DNA of 64,000 nt from Fodinisporobacter ferrooxydans (lineage in GTDB: Bacteria; Bacillota; Bacilli; Tumebacillales; MYW30-H2): the NCBI RefSeq assembly GCF_022818495.1, contig NZ_CP089291.1, forward strand, positions 4,605,501 to 4,669,500, written 5' to 3'. Shown here one piece after another: positions 50,375 to 50,807 of the stretch. Below the pieces are notes generated by a model that was not told the origin of the DNA, searched no databases, and saw only the letters and a list, made by a program, of their open reading frames with translations. A program made the position numbers and the translations under genes. The first letter of the stretch is position 1; each line of letters opens with the position of its first letter.

Positions 50375-50629
50375 TTATTCTTTGGGAACGATTTGTTCCA
50401 ACTGTTTTTCCACTTCTCCGGCTTCCGGGAAGCGTTCTGTCTGTTTCTTTGAGAAAACCAGTTGATCTCCGACAGTTACTTCAAAAACTCCCCCCGAAGA
50501 TGGAATCAAGGCAATTTCAGTAATTCGATCTTTATAAAACTTTACAAGTGAATCCGTCAAACTGACGGCTTTTGGCAAGTAGTTTCACATCGTACAAAAT
50601 TCAATCGAAACACGAACCTTTTTTGCCAT
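50375..50629 (-). CDS. SelW-like (Rdx family) selenoprotein with in-frame UGA and CxxU motif
   Basis: Reading through an in-frame TGA at 50585-50587 gives an 84-residue protein that matches the SelW/SelT/SelH thioredoxin-like (Rdx) family over its full length. It has VRVSIEFCTMU, where U is residue 15 and C residue 12, then the IALIPSSGGVFEVTVG core and the SKKQTERFPEAGEVEKQL tail. The ATG at 50629 has GGAGGT seven bases upstream, whereas the apparent start after the TGA (TTG 50578) has none and would remove the redox motif. Family members are small redox proteins with Cys or Sec at this position. The hairpin at 50554-50568 fits a bacterial SECIS. Requires genome-wide selABCD for confirmation. 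Confidence 0.88.
50554..50568 (-). promoter_or_regulatory. Bacterial SECIS-like hairpin for UGA recoding
   Basis: On the minus strand CCGTCA-GTT-TGACGG forms a perfect 6-bp stem with a three-base loop whose first base is G. The stem begins 16 nt after the UGA and the loop about 22 nt after it. This fits known bacterial SECIS features (short stem, G in the loop's first two bases, loop 16-37 nt from UGA). It lies inside the coding region, as is usual in bacteria. Confidence 0.75.
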
Positions 50630-50807
50630 TTTGCATACCTCCGCTTTCCAATATTGCAGGCTTCACTTCCGGGCAGGCTCAAAACAGCCTCGCCCGATGA
50701 ATCATTCCCACCAATACATTAAAATAGAATGTTGCTTTATAATCAAAAGTATACAAAGAAAACTTGGCTTTGCCAAGCGTTTCGGCAAAGTCTTAGTTGC
50801 CCTTATA

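Follow-up and report, generated by a model that had tools for sequence, protein, structure and literature searches.

The selW-like gene on the minus strand of the window (the 64,000-nucleotide stretch of Fodinisporobacter ferrooxydans DNA analyzed here, part of a 4.86 Mb single-contig genome) almost certainly codes for a true selenoprotein, a member of the Rdx/SELENOW-like family, in which an in-frame UGA is decoded as selenocysteine (Sec). We infer Sec insertion at this codon from the Sec machinery of the genome, the conservation of the TGA, and a covarying hairpin just downstream of it. The gene (50375–50629) runs from an ATG at 50629 to a TAA ending at 50375 and is led by a GGAGGT ribosome-binding site just 5' of the ATG (50637–50642, minus strand); also 5' of it on this strand is a promoter-like site, TTGGCA-17-TATACT (50748–50776), which is a consensus match only. 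The in-frame TGA occupies 50585–50587 (minus strand) and, when read as U, gives an 84-residue product (MAKKVRVSIEFCTMUNYLPKAV...VPKE) with U15 and Cys12 in a CxxU motif and no other stops, while under the standard code the sole ORF at this locus begins at TTG 50578. The first-pass annotation had described an in-frame TGA that joins the GGAGGT-led ATG to a frame otherwise starting weakly at TTG, and a Rdx/SelW product of 84 residues with CxxU at residues 12 to 15; its coordinates are all right, the TTG start agrees with the ORF read-out, and the product agrees with the translation and with the Rdx profile match given below. The gene is flanked by a GDSL-lipase-like gene on one side and an RsmF-type methyltransferase gene on the other, and is solitary in its own genome, distant from the sel genes.

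Eighteen of 60 related genomes (own genome apart) share the TGA at this codon. So do 53 of the 399 Bacilli genomes sampled, each of the 53 with SelA over the cut-off, and 80 of 80 loci kept from GTDB representative contigs of Bacillota, Neomarinimicrobiota, Chloroflexi, Acidobacteria, and others, the query for this last scan comprising only the residues downstream of U. Within the relatives set (61 genomes), SelA is found in 32 genomes that include all 19 of the TGA type, and the TGA form is absent from each of the 29 SelA-negative genomes; the genomes behind these co-occurrence counts are kin and do not represent independent events. Residues on both flanks of the TGA are conserved among relatives, and the protein is 68% identical to a consensus-like query made from them. 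Stop-free Cys forms are few: genome G014 has one as a second copy, and single ones occur in G289, which has SelA, and in G130, which does not. In the Cys-type homologue L035, the Cys aligns with residue 15, which is where the first-pass annotation had expected it. That annotation also held Sec use to be uncommon in Bacilli; it is better described as patchy than as rare, as a TGA-type gene is present in no fewer than 13% of the genomes sampled and SelA occurs in about half of the relatives set.

These findings bear directly on the reading of the locus as a pseudogene, i.e., a Cys-type SelW gene in which a disabling mutation or a sequencing error has produced the TGA. TGA lies one base away from the Cys codons TGC and TGT, and Cys-type homologues do exist (L035, G130, and G289), but the recurrence of the same codon throughout the Bacilli genomes and all of the named loci, the conservation on both flanks, a frame with no further lesion, and the occurrence of SelA in this genome and in each other TGA-type genome checked are all at odds with decay. 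Relatives that share the TGA are intact, not decayed, and neither of the circumstances that the first-pass annotation had named as telling against a selenoprotein (a genome without sel genes, or decayed relatives with the same TGA) holds. We reject a pseudogene or sequencing error on the basis of TGA conservation and SelA linkage, and give it only a very slim chance.

The selABCD system implied by the first-pass annotation is present in the genome, with selA, selB, selC, and two selD genes all found. SelA scores 598.7 bits, over its cut-off; SelB is likewise over cut-off and derives from an ORF of 638 aa; and tRNA-Sec scores 60.5 bits against an Rfam threshold of 47 and is called by ARAGORN as tRNA-SeC(tca), with anticodon TCA. 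Both SelD genes are over cut-off, one directly behind selA (G000:C1:2685729-2686658) and the other at G000:C1:147069-147986, and each harbors one in-frame TGA at the active-site position (contexts KAGUGCK and GAGUACK). With two TGA-type selD genes and the selW-like gene, the genome therefore has three or more TGA-containing genes that belong to known selenoprotein families. The second selD (≈147 kb) clusters with MBL-fold, DsrE-like, and ArsR-like genes.

Downstream of the UGA, the minus strand carries a SECIS-like hairpin, CCGUCA-GUU-UGACGG (50554–50568), composed of CCGTCA (50568–50563), GTT (50562–50560), and TGACGG (50559–50554). Its stem of six pairs starts 16 nt past the UGA as the first-pass annotation had claimed, and the GUU loop, with G first, starts 22 nt past it, which agrees with bacterial SECIS elements in having a short downstream stem, a G at the loop start, and a loop 16 to 37 nt from the UGA. 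Taken in one sequence alone, the hairpin is weak evidence and only mildly unusual (P about 0.02): among synonymous-codon shuffles, a stem of at least six pairs with at least four G/C positions arises in 2.3% (P 0.023) and any six-pair stem in 12% (P 0.12), and the minimum free energy (MFE) of the core hairpin gives P 0.017, whereas that of the whole 47 nt past the UGA is not unusual relative to shuffles (P 0.27). Hairpin presence as sole proof of Sec was rejected, since synonymous shuffles yield comparable hairpins in 2 to 12% of cases. Rfam models returned no matches to the hairpin region.

In an alignment of 19 relatives, pairing holds in 96.5% of cells, both sides have changed in four of the six pairs, and the covariation score is reached by no shuffle; examples of compensatory change are CCGUCGGUUCGACGG (L023), CCGUGAGUUUCACGG (L033), CCAUCAGUUUGGUGG (L025), and CCGCUCGUGCAGCGG (L019). 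When 94 sequences are lined up by their UGA, with no fitting step, 84% of cells are paired versus a maximum of 76% in 1000 shuffles, and sliding the partner leaves at most 46% paired; the 84% figure is lowered by many Tissierellia, in which the hairpin adopts a neighboring register with the loop at 17 to 18 nt. Judged from these alignments, the hairpin is conserved through compensatory changes in a manner unlike chance and expected of a SECIS element. The Cys-type homologues made no clean negative control, as just three were found and the result was mixed: two of the three show some hairpin near this position, in a different register. Hairpin presence alone therefore does not tell Sec forms apart from Cys forms.

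One could also propose that the UGA is read as Trp, or that near-cognate read-through is the functional event, in either case without selenocysteine. Such a reading is compatible with the sequence alone, but the Sec machinery in this genome is complete, the stop-free homologue has Cys and not Trp at this position, a covarying hairpin sits at SECIS distance, and co-occurrence with SelA is complete among the genomes checked, all of which makes it highly improbable. Under Sec decoding, Sec would be made on tRNA-Sec by SelA, using selenophosphate from SelD, and SelB with Sec-tRNA-Sec would bind the hairpin just past the UGA, which would then be read as Sec; SelB decoding via a SECIS is established (PMC1794560). 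Without Sec decoding, translation would stop at the UGA and give only a 14-residue peptide. The full-length protein would fold in a thioredoxin-like manner, with the Cys12/Sec15 pair probably cycling between selenol/thiol and selenenylsulfide states.

The joined product matches PF10262 (Rdx) over residues 6 to 78 with an E value of 1.1e-22 (80.5 bits versus a cut-off of 22.6), TIGR02174 (CXXU_selWTH) with 69.5 bits (cut-off, 34.2), and NF041051 with 95.3 bits (cut-off, 88). A single Rdx domain spans the TGA, and residues from either side of it belong to that domain. That the short ORF from TTG 50578 is instead the functional product, with the upstream part left untranslated, is scarcely credible: it is the sole standard-code ORF there, but, with neither strand 1 nor the CxxU site, it is missing parts of a domain whose profile covers from residue 6, the residues just 5' of the site are conserved among relatives, and a GGAGGT site stands ahead of ATG 50629.

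A profile of the joined product and its relatives matches solved SelW-related proteins, including 2FA8 (E 6e-21) and mouse SelW (2NPB, E 2e-7), the latter an Rdx family profile match. An AlphaFold2 model of the joined product (pLDDT 86) has SelW-related 2FA8 as its best fold match (TM 0.90), and the joined product is thus predicted to have the SelW-like thioredoxin-like fold. In the model, CxxU is positioned at the end of strand 1, ahead of helix 1, which begins at residue 18. From motif and predicted fold, the product is probably a small thiol-dependent oxidoreductase with a Cys/Sec redox pair. Bacterial SelW-related crystal structures (2FA8, 2OKA, 2OBK, 3DEX, 2P0G, and 2OJL) share the same fold (TM 0.84–0.91) and the same sequence profile, but identity in the fold alignments is just 26 to 39%. 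Mouse selenoprotein W likewise has a thioredoxin-like fold, but the fold similarity is lower (TM 0.64). In eukaryotes, Sec insertion depends on a SECIS in the 3'-UTR and not on a hairpin within the coding region.

The protein is a further member of a known and widespread family, SELENOW-like (PF10262, CxxU, one Sec), with bacterial members on record from 2006 at the latest. The novelty implied by the first-pass annotation finds no support, since SelW-like selenoproteins of bacteria have long been catalogued as a family. Catalogued members (PMC1794560, PMC2398784, PMC9312934, and PMC13188914) have the same domain, a single-Sec CxxU, a small thioredoxin-like fold, a SECIS-like hairpin, and occurrence in Sec-decoding bacteria; the differences are in host lineage and sequence only. 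An early survey listed 10 cases of SelW-like, with Cys homologues scarce or absent among Sec users, and already reported three selenoproteins in Bacillales (PMC1794560); SelW-like and SelD were the most widespread marine selenoproteins (427 sequences; PMC2398784); and SelW-like selenoproteins with CxxU were catalogued subsequently (PMC9312934), the 2026 catalogue giving PF10262 only as CxxU with one Sec (PMC13188914). We found no substrate of bacterial SelW in this bacterial selenoprotein literature (PMC1794560, PMC2398784, PMC9312934, and PMC13188914).

Two variants of SelW were observed alongside the common form. In two species of one genus, a SelW-like gene has TGA in place of each active-site codon (UxxU), with the hairpin intact; the loci are L080:3956-4201 (Ammoniphilus sp. 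YIM 78166) and L133 (G152:C30:811-1053, minus strand), and both genomes also carry a CxxU copy. Between these two UxxU genes, 29 codons differ synonymously and 18 differ in the amino acid encoded, but neither the TGAs nor the hairpin has been lost; the family entry in PMC13188914, in contrast, gives only CxxU with one Sec. Genome G003, which has the ordinary SelW form, also carries a second, diverged TGA-type paralogue, L036 (G003:C305:468-686, minus strand), whose site (CTSUGSFLEKATG) has one extra residue.

Outside the window, 3' of the second TGA-containing selD, the genome encodes a 249-aa MBL-fold (metallo-beta-lactamase-fold) protein (G000:C1:148256-149002; L155:8257-9006, plus strand; L168) with two in-frame TGAs, both candidate Sec codons, at residues 20 and 186 (ASYLFGUGGKG and GAFSGSTUGRELSGK). 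In G041, where SelA is present, a homologue of 62% identity has TGA at each of the two; TGA-free close homologues are found in G015, G033, G052, and G056, all without SelA over the cut-off, and the three read out (L170, L171, and L173) have Cys at both equivalent positions. Past the second TGA, a stem whose loop contains GGUC is retained in the two Sec-type genes. A word search of the 2026 catalogue did not find this two-TGA family, which is not proof of novelty, and the protein is possibly an uncatalogued two-Sec selenoprotein. The MBL-fold protein and UxxU SelW are the less expected leads and may be newer than the SelW-like gene.

Finally, in 13 Bacilli genomes (G091, G103, G192, G232, G255, G300, G322, G330, G339, G344, G348, G353, and G389) selA directly follows a TGA-type selW at a distance of ≈45 to 690 bases, both genes on one strand, an arrangement that suggests an operon; this adjacency is absent from the window's own genome. 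Among the genomes checked, the TGA form of selW never occurs in one without SelA. On these two observations one could propose that Bacilli SelW-like proteins are tied to the selenium pathway, e.g., in handling or sensing reduced selenium, as opposed to acting as general thiol oxidoreductases, a reading that we regard as doubtful.

Standard gene calling would shorten the selW-like gene and remove its active site, an annotation that is corrected here. The gene marks the Fodinisporobacter lineage as Sec-decoding within Bacilli, and this Bacilli host, together with the relatives in which selW lies beside selA, offers a place to test SelW function.
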